From Thermodesulfomicrobium sp. WS (GTDB lineage: Bacteria > Desulfobacterota > Desulfovibrionia > Desulfovibrionales > Desulfomicrobiaceae), in NCBI RefSeq assembly GCF_027925145.1, contig NZ_AP027130.1, positions 310,001 through 374,000 on the forward strand: DNA of 64,000 bases, in the 5' to 3' direction. Each line of letters begins with the position of its first letter. Within the stretch, counting starts at the first letter, position 1. The notes beneath the pieces are model-generated. The model was not told the origin of the DNA. It saw only the letters and a list, made by a program, of their open reading frames with translations, and did no database searches. This document shows, piece after piece, positions 26,889-36,963 of the stretch. A program made the position numbers and the translations under genes.

Positions 26889-27662
26889 ATGCATCTCGTT
26901 GCCAATCGTCTCTCGAGTACGAATTTTTGGGCCTGGGTGGCGGTACCGGGATCGGAAGCGCCCCTGCCCTGTCCGGTGCGTATCGAAGAAGCGCCGCGGC
27001 GTTTGCGCGTCGGCGATGTGTGTACCGTGCGCAACACCCAAGTGGTGGTCGACGCCGTGAGCATCTGTCCGGACACCCAAGGAATGCTCCACCAATTGGT
27101 GGCATGTCGGATCACCTCGGGAAGGCTTGCCCAGGGGGCTTCCACCGTGGAGCTGGCGCGGCCTGGTCTGGCAGTGGCTGTGGTCACCTTGAGCGATAAG
27201 GGGTCTCGTGGAGAACGGGAAGATACCAGCGGGCCTGCGGTCTTGGAGCTGCTTCAGGAGTCCCTTTCCGTGACCACCCATGCCATGGTGGTCATCCCTG
27301 ATGATGCCCCGACGCTCAAGCGCTATCTCATGGACCTCTGCTTGGTGCAGGGATACGATCTCGTCGTCACCAGCGGCGGCACTGGCGTGGCCCCGCGGGA
27401 CATCACCCCAGAGGTGACCCTGGCGGCTATCGAGCGACGTTTGCCCGGGCTCGAAACCGCCATGATGCTCACTGCCCTGCAAAAAACCCCCCATGCCGCC
27501 ATTTCCCGGGCAGTGGCAGGCACTTTGGGGGAAAGTATCGTCCTCAATCTCCCCGGAAGTCCCAAGGCTGTCCGAGAAAATTTGGCTGCAGTGCTTGCCG
27601 CTTTGCCCCACGCCATCGCCAAGCTCCAGGGAGATGACTCCGACTGTGGTTCCCACCATTGA
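26889..27662 (+). CDS. MogA/MoaB-family molybdenum cofactor protein with N-terminal extension
   Basis: The 257-residue protein is preceded by AGGAGG 6 nt before the ATG. Residues ~95-255 are a MogA/MoaB domain: VAVVTLSDKGSRGEREDTSG, then VVIPDDAPTLKRYL, the pterin/MPT-binding VVTSGGTGVAPRDITPE and LPGSPKAVRENL at the end. This domain adenylates molybdopterin. The first ~95 residues (VRIEEAPRRLRVGDVCTVRN and a beta-rich stretch) are not part of MoaB and resemble a reduced MOSC-like half; that is a guess. Molybdenum/tungsten enzymes such as formate dehydrogenases would be the clients. It overlaps the following kinase by 29 bp. Confidence 0.85.
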   Translation: MHLVANRLSSTNFWAWVAVPGSEAPLPCPVRIEEAPRRLRVGDVCTVRNTQVVVDAVSICPDTQGMLHQLVACRITSGRLAQGASTVELARPGLAVAVVTLSDKGSRGEREDTSGPAVLELLQESLSVTTHAMVVIPDDAPTLKRYLMDLCLVQGYDLVVTSGGTGVAPRDITPEVTLAAIERRLPGLETAMMLTALQKTPHAAISRAVAGTLGESIVLNLPGSPKAVRENLAAVLAALPHAIAKLQGDDSDCGSHH

Positions 27663-29256
27663 CGTGACCTTTGCCCTGCAGCTGCGCTCTTTTTTCCTCA
27701 AGTGTACTGCATCTCGCTTGGGGATTGTCACGGTCTGTCTTTTGACCGTGATTGCTGAGTGGCTCCATCTTTCAGTACGGGAGATGGTCTTTATTCCTCA
27801 GCGCCAGTTTTTATACGGAATATTTTTCTTTTTTGGATTTGGGACGAATATCGTCTATCTTTTGCTCCAACGCTGGTTTCTTCATGATCATTGGTTTTTT
27901 TCTTCTCAAATTATCATCGATATTGTACTCTCAATATTTTGGATATTTTTGACTGGAGTTACCTTTAGTCCATTTCTTTTTATTATTTTTATAATTGTTT
28001 TCTATTATGGAAAATTTCATGGAATAAAAACATCTATAAATATTTCTTTAATTTTTATATTATTGCTTTTTTCTCTTTCATGTTTTCAATTTTATTTTCC
28101 TCGTTATTGGGGAGAAGATCATATTCGAGGTTCATATATCGCATACAATTTTTGTATGCTTTGTGTTGGATTTTTGCTTGTCAACGGATTGGTCCGTATC
28201 CAAAAACACGGAGAACTGGAGATTTTACGCCGCCTTCATGATCGGGATATGGCCCTCAAAAAGGCGGAAGAGCTTCAACGCAAAGTGTTTCATGGGCTCG
28301 ACACGTCGTTGGTGCTTCTCGATCCCTATGGCCGCATCACTTCCCTCAATGCCGCGGCCATGGCGGAAGTGGATGCTCCTGGACCCGTGGAAGGGAAACC
28401 TTTTTGGGAGGTTTTTCCCGAATTTGCTCCATTTTGGCAGAATCGTCTTCGGCTTCCGGTGCGCAACACCGTGCACAGCCTGGAGCGGGGCAAGGTCTAT
28501 GGGTTTCGGCTCACCCCCCTTGGTGATGAGGGATGGATCCTGCTTTTCTCCGACATCACGGAAATCCAGCGTCTGGAGCGACAGGTGCAGGAAATGGAGC
28601 GCTTGGTGGCGGTGGCGGACTTGGCCGCCGGCCTTGCCCACGAGATGAAAAATCCCCTGGCCGGCATCAAGGCGAGTCTGCAACTGTTCATGGCTGGCGA
28701 TTTGGAAGAGGCCCATCGCCGTCGGCTGGCCCACGTGGTGGTGCGGGATGTGGATCGCCTGGATGCCTTGGTGCATGATTTTCTCGTCTTTGCCCGGCCT
28801 TCGGATCCCTATCTGGAGGAAATTGCACTCGTCCCGTTTTTGCAAGAAACGGCGGAAACCATACGTCTGCGCTATCCCCGGGTGGAAGTGATTCTGCACG
28901 TGACGGATGCCGTCTGGGTGTTTGACCGCACCCATTTGCACCACATCGTGAGCAATGTGCTCACCAACGCCTGTCAGGCTGTGGACAGCAAGCCCGATCC
29001 CCCCCGGCAGGTGGTGGTGGAAAACACCGAAGGGCCGGAAGTGCAATCCCTTTTGGTGCGTGACACTGGCCCGGGCATGACCGCGGACATGCTGCGCCGC
29101 TGCTTTGATCCCTTCGTGACCACCAAACCTCAGGGCACAGGGCTTGGGCTTGCCATTTCCCGGCGTCTGGCCGCACAAAACGGTGCCTTGCTCGAGGTGG
29201 CAGCCAATCCCGATGCAGGCGTGACCTTTACCCTGACCCGGCCGAGGACTTCGTGA
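27634..29256 (+). CDS. PilS-like membrane sensor histidine kinase
   Basis: The product has 540 residues: about six TM helices (roughly residues 25-195), a PAS domain (about 215-320, LVLLDPYGRITSLNAAAM), a HisKA with VADLAAGLAHEMKNPLAGI (phospho-His ~336) and an HATPase with NVLTNACQAV, DTGPGM, GTGLGLAI. The arrangement resembles PilS/NtrB-class kinases that partner NtrC-type regulators; no response regulator is adjacent, so it is an orphan here. The TM region (27790-28190) is extremely AT-rich compared with the kinase core. It overlaps the MoaB-like gene by 29 bp and the next gene by GTGA, so it sits inside one operon. ATG 27634 lacks a well-spaced ribosome site. Confidence 0.88.
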   Translation: MTPTVVPTIDVTFALQLRSFFLKCTASRLGIVTVCLLTVIAEWLHLSVREMVFIPQRQFLYGIFFFFGFGTNIVYLLLQRWFLHDHWFFSSQIIIDIVLSIFWIFLTGVTFSPFLFIIFIIVFYYGKFHGIKTSINISLIFILLLFSLSCFQFYFPRYWGEDHIRGSYIAYNFCMLCVGFLLVNGLVRIQKHGELEILRRLHDRDMALKKAEELQRKVFHGLDTSLVLLDPYGRITSLNAAAMAEVDAPGPVEGKPFWEVFPEFAPFWQNRLRLPVRNTVHSLERGKVYGFRLTPLGDEGWILLFSDITEIQRLERQVQEMERLVAVADLAAGLAHEMKNPLAGIKASLQLFMAGDLEEAHRRRLAHVVVRDVDRLDALVHDFLVFARPSDPYLEEIALVPFLQETAETIRLRYPRVEVILHVTDAVWVFDRTHLHHIVSNVLTNACQAVDSKPDPPRQVVVENTEGPEVQSLLVRDTGPGMTADMLRRCFDPFVTTKPQGTGLGLAISRRLAAQNGALLEVAANPDAGVTFTLTRPRTS

Positions 29257-32231
29257 ACGCCCATTATTATACAGATTTCCATATCCATTCCAGGTATTCT
29301 CGGGCAACGAGCAAAGAGTTGGATCTCGAGCTTTTGGCCGCATGGGCGGAAGTGAAAGGCATCGCCGTGGTGGCCACGGGAGATTGCCTGCATGGAGCAT
29401 GGCTTGAGGCCATCGAGGAAGTTTTGGTGCCTGAGGGAAGTGGGCTTTTGTCCCTGCGTCATCCGGAACGCGTGGCCAAGCGTCTTGCCTGGTATCCCAC
29501 GGCCGTGAACGGTTCCACCCGCTTTCTGCTGAGCACCGAGATCAGCTCCATTTACAAAAAAAACGGCCGCGTCCGCAAAATCCACAATCTGGTATACCTG
29601 CCGACACTGGAAGCGGCCAAGGCCTTGCGGGAGCGCCTGCGCAAAGTCGGCAACCTTGATGCCGACGGCCGCCCCATTCTGGGGCTCGACAGCCAAGACC
29701 TGCTCGCCATGGTGCTCGATGTCCATGCCGACGCCTTTCTGGTGCCTGCCCATGTGTGGACACCGTGGTTTTCCCTGTTTGGTTCCCAATCGGGATTCGA
29801 TCACATCGAAGAATGCTTTGGCCCTCTGGCGAGCGAGATCTTTGCCCTGGAAACAGGGCTTTCTTCAGACCCGGACATGAACTGGCTGGTGAGCAGTCTG
29901 GATCGCTTCCAGCTCATCTCCAATTCCGATGCCCATTCTGGGGAAAAACTGGGCCGTGAGGCCAATCGTTTTGCCGGGGCCATGGATTTCACCGCCCTGC
30001 GCGGGGCCCTTGCCGGTACCAGCAAGCGAGCGCAATTCTTAGGCACGGTGGAGTTTTTCCCGGAGGAGGGAAAATACCACCTCGATGGGCACCGTGCCTG
30101 CCAGGTGGTGCTTTCCCCCCGGCAGACCAAAGAACTCCAGGGAATATGTCCCCAGTGTGGAAAACCCCTGACCCTTGGGGTGCTGCACCGGGTCTTCCAA
30201 TTGGCCGACCGTAACGAGCCGCAACAGCCGGTCACCCATCCGGGATTTGTTTCCGCGATCCCACTGGCAGAGATCATCGCCGAAGTCTTGGGAGTCGGCG
30301 TGGCCTCCAAGCGCGTTCAGGAGATGTATGCCCGCGCGATTGCCACCTTGGGTCCGGAGCTCCCGCTGCTCTTGGAAGTGCCGGAAAGCGATCTGCGCCA
30401 ATTCCATCCGCTGCTCGGGGAAGCCATCTCCCGCATGCGTCAAGGAAAGGTGATCCGCACGCCAGGCTATGATGGGATGTATGGTCGCATCCATACCCTC
30501 ACCGCCGAAGACCGCGTGCGTTTTGGTCCTGTTGCCCACGACGTCTTGCGCCGCAGCCAGCGCCGTCGCGAAGAAGTGGGAAGGTCCTTGCAGGAGGCCG
30601 CGGCAACCCAATCCCCAGACCAAGCTTGGTCCCCCAATGCGGAACAACAAGCCGCCATTGCTGCTTCCGGGCCGGTGCTCGTGAGCGCCGGTCCAGGTAC
30701 CGGAAAGACCCATACCTTGGTGGCCCGGATCTTAACTTTGGCCAGGCAGGGGACACCGCTTTCGCACATCCTTGTGGTGACCTTTACGCGCAAGGCAGCT
30801 CAAGAGCTGCGGGAGCGCCTGCGCGCCCATCTGGGAAGCAGCGCCGATCTCGTGCAGGCCGACACCCTGCACGCCGCGGCTTGGGCTTCCTTGGGGGATG
30901 GGCGTTTTCTCCTTGCGGAAGACGAGGCCCAGGCGGTTTTCGCCGCCGCCCATCCAGAGCTTTCCGGCCGGGCGCTGCGTGATGCGTATGCCACCCTGCA
31001 GCGGGGCCGGGAAACCCTCTCCGCTTTGCCAGACCCTGCGTACACCGCCCGCAAAGAGCTTCTTGGGGTCTGGGACTATACGGACCTTTTGGAGCACTGG
31101 TTGGCATTGCTGCGCCAGGGACACCATCGGCGATTTGCTCACGTGCTCGTGGACGAGGCCCAGGACCTTTCACCGTTGCAATGGCGCATCGTCGGGCAGC
31201 TGGCGCGGGAAGATGGTTCTGGGGTGTTTCTCATTGGAGATGCCGATCAGTCCATCTACGGGTTTCGCGGATCAGCCCCCATGGAGGATGCCGCGCGCGC
31301 CCTCTGGCCGGGGTTGCAGGTGGTGCGCTTGACGCAGAACTACCGCAGCGCGCCGCAGATTCTCCGCGTGGCGGCCCCCTTTTCTTGTCATCCCATGCTT
31401 CAGCCCGTGTTCCACCACGTGGGAGAGGTGCGCCTGGGGAGCTTTGCCCACGCCGAGCAAGAAGCCCGCTGGATCGCCAGCACCATCGCCGCCATGGTGG
31501 GGCAGTCCGGCCATTGGCAGATGGACGGTAACGGTGCGGCAGAACCTTTGGCCTTGGAGGATGTGGCCATTTTGGTGCGGGCCCAGAGCCTGATGCCTCC
31601 CGTGGAAACCGCCTTGCGCGAGGCCGGGGTGCCGGTGTACCGGGCCGAAGGCGAGCCCATGTGGAATCATCCGGTGGTGCGTATGGTGCTCGATACGGCG
31701 CGCCAGGCCCTTGCCGGGGAGCTTGCGGTGGACGGCGGCATCCTTGCCGGTGGACCTTCGGCCATCGTGCACTGGCTGCACGCGCAGGGGAAGATGCCGC
31801 AAGTCTCCCAAAGTTCCCCTATGGAGGAGCTCCTTGGACGCTACCGCGAGGCAGGATCGTGGGAACGCCTCCTTTCCCAGCTCCAGCTGGATATGGCCAA
31901 TCATGCGGTCTTTCGCGCTGCCCAAAAGGTGGCGCTTCTGACCATTCATGGATCCAAGGGGCTGGAGTTCCATACGGTTTTTGTGCCGTGCCTCGAAGAC
32001 GGGCTGCTGCCGTGGGCGGAGAGCCCTGAGGATGAAGAAATGCGCATCTTCTACGTTGCCCTTACCCGAGCCAAGCGGCGTCTTGTGCTCACCTCTTCTC
32101 GGCAGCGCCGTCTGTGGGGAAAGGTGCAGACCATGGCGCCGTCGCGGTTTCTTTCCCAGATTCCCAACGATGTGGTGCGATTTGTGGATACACGCACCAA
32201 AGTCGTCTCCCGGCAATTGGTGTTTCCATGA
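29253..32231 (+). CDS. Endonuclease Q-UvrD helicase fusion
   Basis: One 992-residue protein from GTG 29253 (GTGA overlap with the kinase). Residues ~1-430 match endonuclease Q: a PHP-type metal site (DFHIHSRYS at 8-16, ATGD, PAHVWTPW, ISNSDAHSGEKLGREANRF split as SNSDAHS and LGREANRF), a zinc-binding CPQCGKPLTLGVLHR (about 299) and a C-terminal segment ending TPGYDGMYGRI. Residues ~450-992 are an SF1 UvrD helicase: Walker A SAGPGTGKTHTL (~477), LVDEAQDLSP (~633), NYRSAPQI, TIHGSKGLEFHTVF and YVALTRAKRRL (~935). EndoQ cleaves 5' to uracil, hypoxanthine and abasic sites. The fusion would couple the incision to strand unwinding (inference). Confidence 0.88.
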   Translation: MNAHYYTDFHIHSRYSRATSKELDLELLAAWAEVKGIAVVATGDCLHGAWLEAIEEVLVPEGSGLLSLRHPERVAKRLAWYPTAVNGSTRFLLSTEISSIYKKNGRVRKIHNLVYLPTLEAAKALRERLRKVGNLDADGRPILGLDSQDLLAMVLDVHADAFLVPAHVWTPWFSLFGSQSGFDHIEECFGPLASEIFALETGLSSDPDMNWLVSSLDRFQLISNSDAHSGEKLGREANRFAGAMDFTALRGALAGTSKRAQFLGTVEFFPEEGKYHLDGHRACQVVLSPRQTKELQGICPQCGKPLTLGVLHRVFQLADRNEPQQPVTHPGFVSAIPLAEIIAEVLGVGVASKRVQEMYARAIATLGPELPLLLEVPESDLRQFHPLLGEAISRMRQGKVIRTPGYDGMYGRIHTLTAEDRVRFGPVAHDVLRRSQRRREEVGRSLQEAAATQSPDQAWSPNAEQQAAIAASGPVLVSAGPGTGKTHTLVARILTLARQGTPLSHILVVTFTRKAAQELRERLRAHLGSSADLVQADTLHAAAWASLGDGRFLLAEDEAQAVFAAAHPELSGRALRDAYATLQRGRETLSALPDPAYTARKELLGVWDYTDLLEHWLALLRQGHHRRFAHVLVDEAQDLSPLQWRIVGQLAREDGSGVFLIGDADQSIYGFRGSAPMEDAARALWPGLQVVRLTQNYRSAPQILRVAAPFSCHPMLQPVFHHVGEVRLGSFAHAEQEARWIASTIAAMVGQSGHWQMDGNGAAEPLALEDVAILVRAQSLMPPVETALREAGVPVYRAEGEPMWNHPVVRMVLDTARQALAGELAVDGGILAGGPSAIVHWLHAQGKMPQVSQSSPMEELLGRYREAGSWERLLSQLQLDMANHAVFRAAQKVALLTIHGSKGLEFHTVFVPCLEDGLLPWAESPEDEEMRIFYVALTRAKRRLVLTSSRQRRLWGKVQTMAPSRFLSQIPNDVVRFVDTRTKVVSRQLVFP

Positions 32232-32959
32232 ACGTGTTTCGCCGTGCAGCCCCTTCGTGTGTGTATCCGCTTCCCGTTGGATCGGCGTGTGCGCGCCTGG
32301 CCGGCGTGGTGCCTGAAGTGGCGCTCATGTTTTTGGAGACCGAGGCGTGTCTCGCGTACGGCGAGGAGGACCTTCCCCCGGATCTTGCCACCCTTCCCCT
32401 GCGCTATCACGTGCACTTGCCGCTGGATGTGCCATGGGAGCGCGGTGTGGAGGCCGCGGGAGCGGCCATCGAGGCCTTGGTCCACAAGGCCGCCTTCGTC
32501 AGCCCGCACGCCTTGGTGCTGCATCCGCCATCGCCCGACCAGCTCGAAGGGCTTCTGGAGCGCTCTCCCAAGCTGGCGGCGTCCCTGGTCCTCGAAAACG
32601 TTCCTGGAGCCGACCTTGCGGCCGTGTGGCCGCTGATCGAGGCATATAACCTTGGGGTGTGTTTGGATGTGGGGCACCTCGTCACCTATGGCCAGCACCG
32701 TATCCTCGACCTGCCGGGTTTCTTTTCCCGCGTCCGTCTGCTGCACGTCTACGGCGGCGAACCTTCAGGGCGACACCTGCCCCTTGGGGCGTTTCCGGAC
32801 CCAGAACTCTTGCGGCAGATGCTCTGCGCCACCGCTGCCTGCGCGGCAGCCACACCGGTGTCGTTGGTGCTGGAAGTCTTTTCCTGGTCCCATTGGGAGG
32901 CGAGCATGACAACCCTTTCCCAATGGGCGCAGGCGTGGGGGCTTTCGTGGTCGAGCTGA
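32228..32959 (+). CDS. cbiR: CbiR-type cobamide-remodelling phosphodiesterase
   Basis: The 243-residue TIM barrel resembles the AP-endonuclease-2/xylose-isomerase-like fold. Likely metal ligands are in YHVHLPLDVPW, LVLHPPSP, LVLENVPGAD, CLDVGHLVTYG and LLHVYGGEPSGRH, the pattern of CbiR, which hydrolyses the nucleotide-loop phosphodiester of cobamides so that the lower ligand can be replaced. The next gene is a CobU-like kinase of the same salvage pathway, supporting the call. The ATG overlaps the preceding helicase stop (ATGA). The window's class II RNR is a plausible consumer of remodelled B12. I am fairly, not fully, sure of CbiR over another barrel family member. Confidence 0.8.
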   Translation: MNVFRRAAPSCVYPLPVGSACARLAGVVPEVALMFLETEACLAYGEEDLPPDLATLPLRYHVHLPLDVPWERGVEAAGAAIEALVHKAAFVSPHALVLHPPSPDQLEGLLERSPKLAASLVLENVPGADLAAVWPLIEAYNLGVCLDVGHLVTYGQHRILDLPGFFSRVRLLHVYGGEPSGRHLPLGAFPDPELLRQMLCATAACAAATPVSLVLEVFSWSHWEASMTTLSQWAQAWGLSWSS

Positions 32960-33441
32960 TTTTAGGCGGCGCTGCTTCGGGCAAATCCCGTTTTGCCGTG
33001 GAGCGGCTGCTTGCTCTTCCTCATCCGGTCTTGCTCGCCACGGGCAAGGCCCATGACCTTGGCTTTCGAGAGCAGATCGAGGCGCACCGCCGAGAGCGTC
33101 CGGGGCATTTGCCGGTGGTGGAGTGTGGCGTGCATCTGGCGACAGCGCTCAGGAGTCTGCAAGGGGCGTCCGTCTTGGTGGAGAGCCTCGATTTTTGGGC
33201 CTTTGCCGCCCTGGATGCCGGGGTGTGGTCTTCCGAGAGCGCGGCGTTGATCGAGACAGTGGAAAACTGGCGGCAGGGGCGGCTTCTTATGGTATCTCAG
33301 GAAATGGGGCTTTCTCCCCTGGTCATGGATGCTGGAGCCCGGACTTTGGCCCGTGCCCTGGGGGGGCTGCACCAGAAGCTTGCGGCCGTGTGCCAGCACG
33401 TCTATCTGGTGGTGGCTGGGTTCCCCCAAACCCTCAAGTGA
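32923..33441 (+). CDS. cobU: CobU-like adenosylcobinamide kinase/guanylyltransferase
   Basis: The ~172-residue protein has a P-loop LILGGAASGKSRFA near the N-terminus, EAHRRERPGHLPVVE (the CobU HRxxRPxxW-type histidine region) and VLVESLDFW (Walker-B-like). CobU phosphorylates adenosylcobinamide and attaches GMP for nucleotide-loop assembly. It directly follows and overlaps CbiR by 37 bp if ATG 32923 is used; a GTG at 32947 would shorten the N-terminus to the usual length for the family. The NTPase fold is certain; identification as CobU rests on the P-loop, HRRERP motif and CbiR neighbour. Confidence 0.82.
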   Translation: MGAGVGAFVVELILGGAASGKSRFAVERLLALPHPVLLATGKAHDLGFREQIEAHRRERPGHLPVVECGVHLATALRSLQGASVLVESLDFWAFAALDAGVWSSESAALIETVENWRQGRLLMVSQEMGLSPLVMDAGARTLARALGGLHQKLAAVCQHVYLVVAGFPQTLK

Positions 33442-33448
33442 GGCCGGT

Positions 33449-34453
33449 ATGGCATACTTTCGCAAGCTTGGGCCAAAGCTGGAGAAGCTTCTCGATCTCT
33501 TGGATAAAAATGAGCGGTGGCTCATTGTGATCGTTGCCGATCCGGACGCCATGGCCTCGGCCATGGCACTCAAACGCATCATGGCCGGCCGTGTGCGGGA
33601 GGTAGGCATTGCCCATGTGAACGAGATTTCCCGGCCGGACAATTTGGCCATGATGCGTCTTCTGCGCATCCCTACCAAGAAATACACCCCGCTGCTTCGC
33701 GCTCAGTACGACCGTTTCGCCTTGGTGGATTCCCAGCCGCACCACAATACCCAGCTCGCGGAGATCCCTTTTTCTTTGGTCATCGACCATCACCCCAAAG
33801 CAGCCGATGTGCCGGTGCAAGCGGATTTTGTGGAAATCGTTTCCGAATACGGCGCTAATTCCACGATCATGACCGAATATCTCTATAATCTCGATATCCG
33901 ACCGGGAAAGCTCTTAGCCACTGCTTTGCTCTACGGGATCAAGACCGATACACAAAGCTTTGAGCGCGATTTCCATGATATCGATATGCGGGCATTCCGG
34001 TATCTTGCGAAATTTTACCATCGTCCACTACTCCATAAAATTATCCGTTCGGAATTCAAATTGGAGTGGCTCACCTATTTTGCCCAAGCATTCCGTAAAA
34101 TACGTGTTTTTGGAAAAGCCATATTCATCTTCATGGGCAAAGTAGAATCCAGCGATATTTTGGTTATTCTCGCGGATTTTTTCCTTCGGGTCCATGGGGT
34201 TTCTGCAACTATTGTCAGCGGTATTTTTCAAGATCGATTGATTGTTGTCTTTCGTGGCGATGGATTGCGTCAGGATATGGGCAAATATGCCCAGCGCCTC
34301 TTTGGTGAATTTGGTTCTGCAGGCGGGCACCGCACCATGGCCCGGGCGGAGATCCCCTTGGCCAATGTCAGTGACCAGCATGTGAGCCAATTTGTATGGG
34401 ACCGCTTGCAGGCGTGTGCCTGGAAACGCAAAGAGGATGGTCCATGCCGGTAG
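33449..34453 (+). CDS. DHH-family phosphoesterase (NrnA-like)
   Basis: The 334-residue protein is preceded by GAGG 6 nt before the ATG. DHH motifs in order are VADPDAMASAMALKRI (metal Asp), ALVDSQP, VIDHHPKA (the DHH motif), and TALLYGIKTDTQSF. The C-terminal DHHA1-like segment has GSAGGHRTMARAEIP in place of the usual GGGGHxxAAG. NrnA-type members degrade nanoRNA/short oligonucleotides or dephosphorylate pAp and c-di-AMP/pApA products. It sits 7 bp after cobU and overlaps polA by 10 bp, suggesting a nucleic-acid housekeeping role. The stretch 33990-34250 is noticeably AT-richer than the surroundings. Confidence 0.85.
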   Translation: MAYFRKLGPKLEKLLDLLDKNERWLIVIVADPDAMASAMALKRIMAGRVREVGIAHVNEISRPDNLAMMRLLRIPTKKYTPLLRAQYDRFALVDSQPHHNTQLAEIPFSLVIDHHPKAADVPVQADFVEIVSEYGANSTIMTEYLYNLDIRPGKLLATALLYGIKTDTQSFERDFHDIDMRAFRYLAKFYHRPLLHKIIRSEFKLEWLTYFAQAFRKIRVFGKAIFIFMGKVESSDILVILADFFLRVHGVSATIVSGIFQDRLIVVFRGDGLRQDMGKYAQRLFGEFGSAGGHRTMARAEIPLANVSDQHVSQFVWDRLQACAWKRKEDGPCR

Positions 34454-36963
34454 CCGCCTCTTTGGGGTGGAGTACCCCGCCGCTCTTTTTGGTGGATGGC
34501 CACGCCTTCATCCATCGCGGCTTTCATGCCTATCCGGATTTTCGCGCCCCGGATGGCTTTCCCACCAGCGCCCTGTTTTTCGTCCTGCGCATCCTTTTGA
34601 AGATCCTGCGCGAAGAGGCCCCCACCCATCTCGCCTTTGTCATGGAAGGCCGCGGCCCCACCTTTCGGCATGCGCGCTTTGCGGACTACAAGGCCGGCAG
34701 ACCCTCCATGGCCGAAGATTTGGCCCTGCAGATCCCTGCCATTCGCGAGGCGGTGGCGCACCTAGGCATCCCGGTGCTCTCCCAAGATGGCTGCGAGGCC
34801 GATGACGTGCTTGCCAGTTTGGCGGCGCGGTTTGCCGCCCACGGGGTGGTCTTGGTGGGTGCGGATAAGGATTTGTGCCAGTGTCTTGGGCCATCGGTGG
34901 TGCTGTGGGACCCTGCGGGTCGGGGCGAACGGATCCTGCAGGCCGCGGACGTGCAGACCACCTATGGCGTTACGGCGGCGCAGTGGCCGGATTTTCAGGC
35001 GCTCACCGGCGATAGTGTGGACAACATCCCCGGGGTGCCCCGGGTGGGGCCCAAGACCGCGGCCCGCTGGCTGCGCCAGTTTCCGGATCTGGAGTCCTTG
35101 TGCGCCAACCTCCACCAACTGCCGCCCAAGGAGCAGCAATTGCTCGTACCCCATGTGGAGGACGTGTTCGTCTATCGGGAGCTCACCACCCTGCGCACGG
35201 ACTGTGTCCCGGAGATCACCTGGGAAGATTTGGCGCGACGGCCCATGGACCCGAAGGCGGTGGCCGCCTTGGTGCAGCGCTTTGGCTTTCGCTCCCTGGA
35301 AGCCGAACTGGAGGAATTTGTGGATAGCTCCTCTGCGCCGCGGCAGCGCCCTGCACCGATGGCAGGGCGACTGGCTTCGTGGGAGGATCTGCCGGACCTT
35401 TCCGGTCAGGCGGTTGCCTTTTGGATTGAAGACGACGTGACGGAGCTTGCCGCAGGAGAGCACTTGTGGCGTGTACCTGGTCCGCCGCCGCGAGGCGCCT
35501 TGGAGCGGGTCATGGGCACCGTGGTTTCCTCCAAGGAGCTGCGCCGGGCAGGATGGGAGATGGATGCGTGGGCCGCGGTATGGGACGTGGAACTCATGGC
35601 CTATCTCCTCGATCCCGAAGCCCGGGACTATTCCTGGCCGCGCTTGGCAGGGCAATTTTTGGGGGACACTGCTGCTGCCGGCGCCCGCGCCGTGGCCCAG
35701 GCCGGGGAAGTGCTGCGTGAGCGCCTTGCGGCTGCGGGGCTCGTGGATCTGTACTTGCGGTTGGAGCTGCCGCTGGTGCGGGTGCTCGTGGCCATGGAGG
35801 CGCGCGGCATTGCCTTGGACGGGGCGCGGTGTGCGAGGTTGCTGGAGCAGGTAGAGGCCCGCTTGGAGGATTTGACCCAGCGCATCTATGCTGCTTCTGG
35901 AACGCAGTTCAACATCCGATCCAACCAACAGCTCGCTTATGTGCTCTACGACCAATTGGGGCTGCCTGCGCCGCGCAAGACCGCAGGCGGGGCGCGCTCC
36001 ACGGCGGTGGAGGCCCTGGAGGCGATCCGCCATGCCCACCCTGTGGTGGAGATGGTCTTGGAGTTTCGCATGCTCGAGAAGCTGCGCTCCACCTATCTCG
36101 TGCCGCTTCCGGCCGCTGCCGACGCCACAGGCCGCATCCACACCACCTTCAACCACCTGGCCACGGCCACCGGTCGCCTTTCCAGCAGCGACCCCAACCT
36201 CCAGAACATCCCCATCCGTGGGCCGCTGGGCGCCCCGGTGCGGGCCTGCTTCGTGGCCCCGCCGGGGAAGGCGCTCATCGCTGCGGACTATTCGCAAATC
36301 GAATTGCGCGTGCTCGCCCACTTGAGCGCGGACCCTGCGCTTACCGCGGCCTTTGCAAAGGGAGAAGACATCCATACGCGTACCGCCAGCCTGCTTTTCG
36401 ATCTTTCGCCAGAGGAAGTCGGCAAAGAAGAACGGCGCCGCGCCAAGACCATCAATTTTGGGTTGCTCTACGGCATGGGTCCGGCCAAACTGGCCCGCGA
36501 GCTCGGGATTTCCCAGAAGGAAGCCAAGGCCTTTATCGCGCGCTACTTCGAAAAATTGGGTGGAGTGCGGGAGTTTTATTCGATGGTGGAAGAGTCCGCC
36601 CGGCGCCAGGGGTATGTGCTCACCTTGGCGGGACGGCGTCGGCTGCTTCCAGGTATGACCTCGGCAAATCCCGCGGTCCTTCAGGCCGCCCGGCGTATGG
36701 CCATCAACACCGTGGTGCAGGGATCGGCGGCGGACATCATCAAAATGGCCATGCTCCAGGTGGAGGAGGATGCCACGGTGCGCCAGCTGGGGGGCGCGCT
36801 GCTTTTGCAGGTGCACGATGAACTCGTCCTGGAGGCCCCTACGGCTACGGCCCAGGCGGTGGGCGAGCGGGTGGCGGCCATCATGACTTCCGTGGTCTCC
36901 TTGCAGGTCCCCCTGGTGGTGGATTTCGGCATTGGTCCGGACTGGGCCGCTGCCCATGGATAG
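34444..36963 (+). CDS. polA: DNA polymerase I with degenerate proofreading domain
   Basis: The 839-residue Pol I starts at ATG 34444, overlapping the DHH gene. The 5' nuclease domain (1-~285) shows FLVDGHAFIHRGFHAY, GCEADDVLASLA, VGADKDLCQC and ALTGDSVDNIPGVPRVGPKT. The middle 3'-5' exonuclease region is short and has lost recognisable metal ligands: the usual FDTET is FWIED and the last Asp is not apparent. The polymerase domain has motif A DYSQIELRVLAHLS (~615), motif B RRRAKTINFGLLYGMG and motif C LQVHDELVLEAP (~790). It fills gaps in repair and replaces RNA primers. It would lack proofreading, as in Bacillus- or Taq-type Pol I. Confidence 0.95.
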   Translation: MPVAASLGWSTPPLFLVDGHAFIHRGFHAYPDFRAPDGFPTSALFFVLRILLKILREEAPTHLAFVMEGRGPTFRHARFADYKAGRPSMAEDLALQIPAIREAVAHLGIPVLSQDGCEADDVLASLAARFAAHGVVLVGADKDLCQCLGPSVVLWDPAGRGERILQAADVQTTYGVTAAQWPDFQALTGDSVDNIPGVPRVGPKTAARWLRQFPDLESLCANLHQLPPKEQQLLVPHVEDVFVYRELTTLRTDCVPEITWEDLARRPMDPKAVAALVQRFGFRSLEAELEEFVDSSSAPRQRPAPMAGRLASWEDLPDLSGQAVAFWIEDDVTELAAGEHLWRVPGPPPRGALERVMGTVVSSKELRRAGWEMDAWAAVWDVELMAYLLDPEARDYSWPRLAGQFLGDTAAAGARAVAQAGEVLRERLAAAGLVDLYLRLELPLVRVLVAMEARGIALDGARCARLLEQVEARLEDLTQRIYAASGTQFNIRSNQQLAYVLYDQLGLPAPRKTAGGARSTAVEALEAIRHAHPVVEMVLEFRMLEKLRSTYLVPLPAAADATGRIHTTFNHLATATGRLSSSDPNLQNIPIRGPLGAPVRACFVAPPGKALIAADYSQIELRVLAHLSADPALTAAFAKGEDIHTRTASLLFDLSPEEVGKEERRRAKTINFGLLYGMGPAKLARELGISQKEAKAFIARYFEKLGGVREFYSMVEESARRQGYVLTLAGRRRLLPGMTSANPAVLQAARRMAINTVVQGSAADIIKMAMLQVEEDATVRQLGGALLLQVHDELVLEAPTATAQAVGERVAAIMTSVVSLQVPLVVDFGIGPDWAAAHG

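Follow-up and report, generated by a model that had tools for sequence, protein, structure and literature searches.

The window, i.e. the whole stretch of 64,000 nucleotides from Thermodesulfomicrobium sp. WS that was analyzed here, contains a single frame of 992 residues at positions 29253-32231 (plus strand), and its open reading frame translation includes all motifs quoted in the preliminary description. At its 5' end, the gene overlaps with the stop of the histidine kinase gene that precedes it (GTGA, 29253-29256), and its stop overlaps the ATG start of a downstream gene for CbiR (ATGA, 32228-32231). Because of these overlaps with both neighbours, the gene lies in a tight cluster. The features of the region are listed below.

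26889..27662, plus strand: gene of the conserved cluster with a MoCF_biosynth domain (domain call; gene order)
27493..29256, plus strand: sensor histidine kinase, immediately upstream of the fusion, start codon uncertain (gene order)
29253..32231, plus strand: EndoQ-UvrD fusion protein, 992 aa, GTG start (overlaps both neighbours; purifying selection)
29253..30527, plus strand: EndoQ half, residues 1-425, with PHP nuclease, zinc-binding and C-terminal helical domains (sequence match; Z 46.9 to 5zb8_B)
29274..29291, plus strand: PHP motif DFHIHS (D8, H10, H12), equal to Pfu D6, H8, H10
29928..29936, plus strand: PHP motif SDAH, core D226-H228, equal to Pfu D193, H195 (invariant in 93 of 93 fusions)
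30090..30158, plus strand: zinc-binding site H280, C283, C299, C302 (HxxC...CxxC), aligned to Pfu C249, C252, C268, C271
30528..30623, plus strand: flexible linker, residues 426-457 (pLDDT <50; variable length; without purifying selection)
30624..32198, plus strand: SF1A helicase of the UvrD family (residues 458-982), in which 1B and 2B are shortened (Pfam, sequence and fold matches)
30684..30716, plus strand: Walker A SAGPGTGKTHT (478-488); G482, G484, K485 and T486 invariant
31152..31166, plus strand: Walker B DEAQD (634-638); D634, E635, Q637 and D638 invariant
32040..32084, plus strand: helicase motif VI MRIFYVALTRAKRRL (930-944) (motif alignment)
32199..32228, plus strand: disordered C-terminal tail; its end SRQLVFP is a degenerate form of the clamp-type motif QLxLF seen in other members of the family (the strict pattern does not occur in this copy)
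32228..32959, plus strand: CbiR, a cobamide-remodelling phosphodiesterase, not a nuclease despite a weak AP_endonuc_2 match
32659..33441, plus strand: CobU, start codon uncertain (gene order)
33329..34453, plus strand: DHH phosphoesterase, weakly NrnA-like, found between CobU and polA across Desulfovibrionales
34396..36963, plus strand: DNA polymerase I (polA) with 5'-nuclease domain (gene order)

Architecture of the fusion protein

The first description of the gene, with EndoQ joined to a helicase of the UvrD type, is fully borne out by the sequence matches and folds of both halves. The protein consists of a complete EndoQ half (residues 1-425), a linker and a complete UvrD-family (SF1A) helicase half (residues 458-982). 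Residues 8-414 align to PfuEndoQ (5zb8) with E=1.4e-55 over almost its full length, residues 462-988 align to PcrA, UvrD1, UvrD and Rep, and the Pfam search returned UvrD-helicase (1.5e-42) and UvrD_C (1.5e-30). Among the NCBIfam models, TIGR00375, a hypothetical equivalog model with a cut-off of 326.6 bits, matches at 173.8 bits, i.e. below this cut-off, which is reached by no genome in the phylum-wide sample of 198 genomes. The UvrD/PcrA/Rep models match the fusion at 182-193 bits and their equivalog cut-offs (911-1144) are likewise not reached. The comparison with a relative that is 77% identical over the EndoQ half (L031) revealed pN/pS values of 0.16/0.75 for the EndoQ half and 0.27/0.69 for the helicase half, that is purifying selection in both, and of 0.65/0.69 for the linker, which evolves without purifying selection. 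An artefactual reading frame or a chimeric assembly is ruled out by the occurrence of the same single frame in dozens of independent genomes from many genera.

The AlphaFold2 model, built on an alignment of 58 sequences, has a mean pLDDT of 86.7 and a pTM of 0.77; besides the linker (426-457), only the ten C-terminal residues and a short loop at 752-762 have values under 50. The modelled EndoQ half superimposes on 385 residues of PfuEndoQ (5zb8_B) at 2.1 A with Z 46.9, the modelled helicase half matches Rep, UvrD and PcrA with Z values of about 38-40, and the folds of both halves were also matched by Foldseek. Across the family, the region between residues 425 and 465 is 34 to 171 residues long, and because of this wide range the linker looks like a tether; an interface of the EndoQ half with the helicase half is not claimed.

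For the EndoQ half, 93 fused and 27 standalone bacterial copies were aligned by residue with PfuEndoQ as reference, in which the metal ligands and essential residues have been named (PMC4357722, PMC8307549). The Pfu residues D6, H8, H10, E76, H84, H139, E167, D193 and H195 correspond to D8, H10, H12, E96, H111, H167, E200, D226 and H228 here, so a loss of the PHP ligands is not seen. All active-site positions of the Pfu enzyme, including D42, are identical in the fusion and nearly invariant in the 93 fusions and 27 standalone copies. Moreover, H139, G169 and S171 of PfuEndoQ, reported to keep normal bases out of the lesion pocket (PMC8307549), correspond to H167, G202 and S204, which are invariant in the 93 fusions. 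Homology to generic PHP or PolX domains is ruled out, because the match extends over all EndoQ domains and the lesion pocket. In the zinc-finger-like site noticed in the preliminary description, all four ligand positions are present, and the first pair reads HxxC and not CxxC; His replaces Cys as first ligand here and in nearly all bacterial copies. The four aligned Cys residues of the Pfu enzyme (C249, C252, C268, C271) are putative zinc ligands.

The fusion shares the three-domain fold, the metal ligands and the lesion-gating residues with the characterised EndoQs (PfuEndoQ PF1551, TkoEndoQ, Bacillus pumilus EndoQ, MacEndoQ), and a clamp-type C-terminal motif is found in most of its bacterial relatives. 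It differs from them by HxxC for CxxC, the missed TIGR00375 cut-off, an identity of 35% between its EndoQ half and PfuEndoQ, and the addition of a full helicase, whereas the characterised EndoQs are all standalone proteins. Judged by its sequence, the EndoQ half is a divergent member of the EndoQ family and not an equivalog of the TIGR00375 model. Given the score far under the cut-off and the identity of 35%, its specificity may have drifted.

In the helicase half, the SF1A motifs I, Ia, Ib, II, III, IV, V and VI are all present and their key residues are invariant in 58 aligned fusions. It resembles UvrD, PcrA and Rep in the complete set of SF1 motifs, the 1A/2A core and the fold (Z 38-40), but differs from them by short 1B and 2B domains, the lack of GIG, scores far under the equivalog cut-offs and the covalent connection to a nuclease. 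The spacing between motifs Ib and II amounts to 96 residues compared to 137 in the UvrD-like protein of the same genome (L111), and the spacing between motifs IV and V, corresponding to the 2B region, to 203 aa compared to 251. The GIG motif of the 2B domain was found neither in this copy nor in most fusion members, while a full-length 2B is retained in some relatives (Geobacteraceae, some Desulfobacterales), several of them with GIG. The shortened 2B suggests a specialisation of the helicase within the fusion. It has been reported that deletion of 2B activates the helicase monomer and that MutL, PriC and RepD activate the monomers of UvrD, Rep and PcrA (PMC13238157). This makes the reduction of the autoinhibitory 2B, in a helicase that is joined to a nuclease, suggestive.

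A clamp-type motif, Q[LMI]x[LMIF][FLI] within the last 12 residues and typically QLSLF, occurs in 49 of the 63 complete fusions; as background, this pattern appears in 0.4% of shuffled sequences and, among 783 other ORFs, once. Its position is after the helicase in fusions and after the EndoQ domain in standalone copies, many of which (among the 20 bacterial ones examined, L137-L156) show a QxxLF-type ending directly behind this domain. Archaeal EndoQ was found to bind PCNA via a C-terminal PIP box by Shiraishi et al. 2016, who also pointed out clamp motifs in bacterial homologs and left a helicase unmentioned (PMC4858679). As the SRQLVFP tail is degenerate, clamp binding is not claimed for the present copy. 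In another genome (L046:7270-8589), a standalone EndoQ is followed by a gene of 440 aa with DQLELF near the C-terminus, which possibly encodes another clamp-binding repair protein.

Distribution, history and genomic surroundings

The preliminary description had placed EndoQ in archaea and a few bacteria. This is contradicted by its presence in 136 of the 198 genomes of the phylum-wide sample and by the occurrence of the fusion in at least 14 named phylum-level bacterial groups, with many of the fusions coming from metagenome bins; isolates with the fusion belong to Geobacter, Phytoactinopolyspora, Prauserella, Amycolatopsis, Actinoallomurus and Polyangium. According to a count of the listed frames, about 58 of the EndoQ frames in the phylum sample are fusion-length and about 77 short, with frame length serving as proxy for fusion and the helicase confirmed by BLAST for the fetched loci. 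Among closer relatives, an EndoQ match was obtained in 59 of 61 genomes (48 of 49 good genomes, 18 of 18 genera), nearly always in fusion-length frames, and nearly every Desulfovibrionales genome examined carries the fusion.

In a quick tree with many open forks, standalone copies are basal, fusions are nested among standalone ones, and several later losses or splits appear. The pairwise distances of the EndoQ and helicase halves correlate with r 0.93. In the split cases L065, L076 and L094, the EndoQ and helicase genes stay adjacent. One ancient fusion with secondary losses is the simplest reading because of the nesting in the tree, this correlation and the naturally split copies, whose two genes are neighbours. 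A single in-frame TAA lies between the two halves in a genome of the same family (L136:4928-4930, minus strand); a split gene, a nonsense mutation and an assembly error cannot be told apart in this case.

The order MoCF gene, histidine kinase, fusion, CbiR, CobU, DHH phosphoesterase and polA is kept in many Desulfovibrionales, and the DHH and polA genes sometimes adjoin the fusion directly (L127). The weak AP_endonuc_2 match of the downstream gene might point to Endonuclease IV, which is ruled out by its identification as CbiR. The linkage to polA is limited to Desulfovibrionales, and unrelated cobamide genes share it in part. Outside this order, neither linkage to polA nor a recurring repair family was found among 81 neighbouring genes in other lineages, and an operon conserved across phyla is rejected on the basis of this tally. 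In Geobacter argillaceus, a UDG-superfamily gene lies directly upstream of the EndoQ-helicase gene (L045:5170-5988), and the same position is taken by a MutT-like NUDIX gene in another Geobacteraceae genome (L049:5564-6001).

Neither a UDG-superfamily protein nor EndoV was detected in the complete, single-contig genome from which the window is taken. Besides Nth-like and MutY-like proteins, this genome encodes one more HhH-GPD protein. The sister genus g4 (e.g. L162, L164, L165) has a protein of about 249 aa that resembles the UDG superfamily but is divergent, with a weak PF03167 match and the motifs AEALGYQG and HPANGG; it was not found in the window genome. The ExoIII of the window genome (G000:C1:1124648-1125370, L157) has its closest solved relative in 3fzi from the Methanothermobacter Mth212 group, which we take to be Mth212, the archaeal DNA uridine endonuclease, and keeps K125, N153, S171 and R209, four residues published as needed for uracil recognition. 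From its sequence, this enzyme could represent a second, possible route of uracil incision in a bacterium without UDG. The assumption that EndoQ-UvrD is the only uracil-incising enzyme of this genome is thereby weakened; it need not be the sole one. UDG is present in 184 of the 198 genomes of the phylum sample, and 10 of the 14 genomes without it are Desulfovibrionales with the fusion. The absence of UDG and the presence of EndoQ coincide only in this one order and thus count as a single phylogenetic event without statistical weight. A general substitution of UDG by EndoQ is rejected, because most EndoQ-bearing genomes of the phylum also retain UDG. A literature search on the absence of UDG in Desulfovibrio returned nothing relevant.

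Proposed excision from the EndoQ nick

Incision plus unwinding, as already put forward in the preliminary description, is the best reading of the fusion; that both take place in one step may be supposed. It appears probable that the protein is a self-contained damage-excision enzyme, in which EndoQ nicks at the lesion and the tethered helicase unwinds the damaged strand from this nick. The EndoQ nick is known to lie on the 5' side of the lesion and to have 3'-OH and 5'-P ends (PMC4357722), and published models let a helicase, displacement of the strand or EndoV act next; where a helicase is invoked, it is worded as "removal by helicase activity" or as helicase plus FEN1 and left unnamed (PMC4357722, PMC8438529). 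What is observed here is the domain anatomy, the conservation of the family with its catalytic residues intact, the reduction of 2B, the frequency of the C-terminal motif and the gene order; we infer for the present protein which lesions it recognises, that its helicase is active, on which strand and in which direction this loads and that both halves are coupled, and for its relatives that they bind the clamp. The EndoQ half would find uracil, hypoxanthine, xanthine or AP sites, flip the lesion out and cut the phosphodiester 5' of it, which gives a 3'-OH on one side and, on the other, a 5'-phosphate end that carries the lesion. The UvrD-family half tethered to it, as a 3'-to-5' motor, would then load on the undamaged strand at the nick and peel the damaged strand downstream as a 5' flap. 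The 5' nuclease of Pol I, encoded by polA in the shared cluster, could cut this flap, Pol I could refill from the 3'-OH, and ligase would seal the strand. The tether and the reduced 2B might allow the helicase to act as a monomer, independent of the external activators on which UvrD, PcrA and Rep rely, and in most relatives the C-terminal clamp-type motif may bring the fusion to the sliding clamp. Arguments for this reading are the conserved active site and lesion pocket, the fold matches, the short 2B, the joint history of the halves, the clamp-type motif of the relatives, polA and DHH in the cluster, the absence of UDG and EndoV, and the UDG and MutT-like neighbours in Geobacteraceae. Points against it are the low TIGR00375 score and the 35% identity to PfuEndoQ, the restriction of the polA linkage to one order, the retention of UDG in most EndoQ-bearing genomes of the phylum, the Mth212-like ExoIII and the degenerate clamp motif of this copy.

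Similar arrangements are known from RepD-PcrA and MutL-UvrD, where a monomer of a UvrD-family helicase is activated by a partner that processes DNA. In the one case it is RepD that introduces the nick, and in the other UvrD starts from a nick left by MutH. These partners are separate proteins, whereas the fusion would combine nickase and helicase in one chain, and its nick would be placed at a damaged base. A more far-reaching version, which we put forward tentatively and with some doubt, is a widespread bacterial, glycosylase-free excision pathway in one chain, in which the clamp-tethered nickase loads its own, by the reduction of 2B constitutively active helicase and by which UDG and EndoV might have become dispensable in Desulfovibrionales.

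The opposite order of action, in which the helicase first opens the DNA at a fork, an R-loop or a transcription bubble and EndoQ then cuts the ssDNA at uracil or hypoxanthine as a clamp-recruited lesion scanner, seems unlikely. It would be in line with the efficient cleavage of U and Hx in ssDNA by PfuEndoQ (PMC11354406) and with the clamp-type C-terminus of most relatives, and the long variable linker fits either order. However, a template strand cut at an open fork is a broken strand, cleavage of AP sites is poor in ssDNA (PMC6202378), and replication-fork genes were not found among the neighbours. Still less probable is that the halves act independently and were joined only for co-expression and co-localisation, e.g. 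at the clamp. The disordered linker of very variable length would permit this, and the repeated loss or splitting of the fusion indicates that the covalent link is not essential; on the other hand, the split genes found stay adjacent, the halves diverge together (r 0.93), and the reduction of 2B suggests that the helicase became specialised within the fusion.

Gabija GajAB and AddAB/RecBCD/AdnAB also join a UvrD-like motor with a nuclease, but there the nucleases are of the TOPRIM or RecB type and serve double-strand-break processing or defence, and a lesion-specific PHP nuclease is not theirs. A Gabija-type nuclease-helicase or another defence system against phage or foreign DNA that carries deaminated or modified bases is the least likely of these alternatives and was rejected, even though the best PADLOC matches are GajB helicases and an antiviral role has been proposed for Bacillus EndoQ (PMC8307549), because the PADLOC matches are confined to the helicase half, no GajA TOPRIM/ATPase partner was found nearby (the neighbours are a histidine kinase and CbiR), the gene is nearly universal and conserved in position in Desulfovibrionales, unlike patchy defence genes, and the phage and plasmid records searched contain no EndoQ relative and no fusion, respectively.

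In the open-access literature searched, the EndoQ-helicase fusion is not described, but it may be depicted in passing in Figure 9A of the 2015 paper, which shows the domain structures of bacterial EndoQ. This literature covers standalone EndoQ only, places it in "a few bacteria" and yielded no biochemical data on fused members, in agreement with the initial remark that no characterised example is known. The view of EndoQ as an archaeal enzyme shared by a few bacteria is corrected here. What follows the EndoQ nick is an open question in EndoQ biology, to which the conserved fusion suggests an answer, and the step after the nick becomes testable with one purified protein. Finally, the fusion represents a natural nickase-tethered SF1 helicase in which the autoinhibitory domain is reduced.
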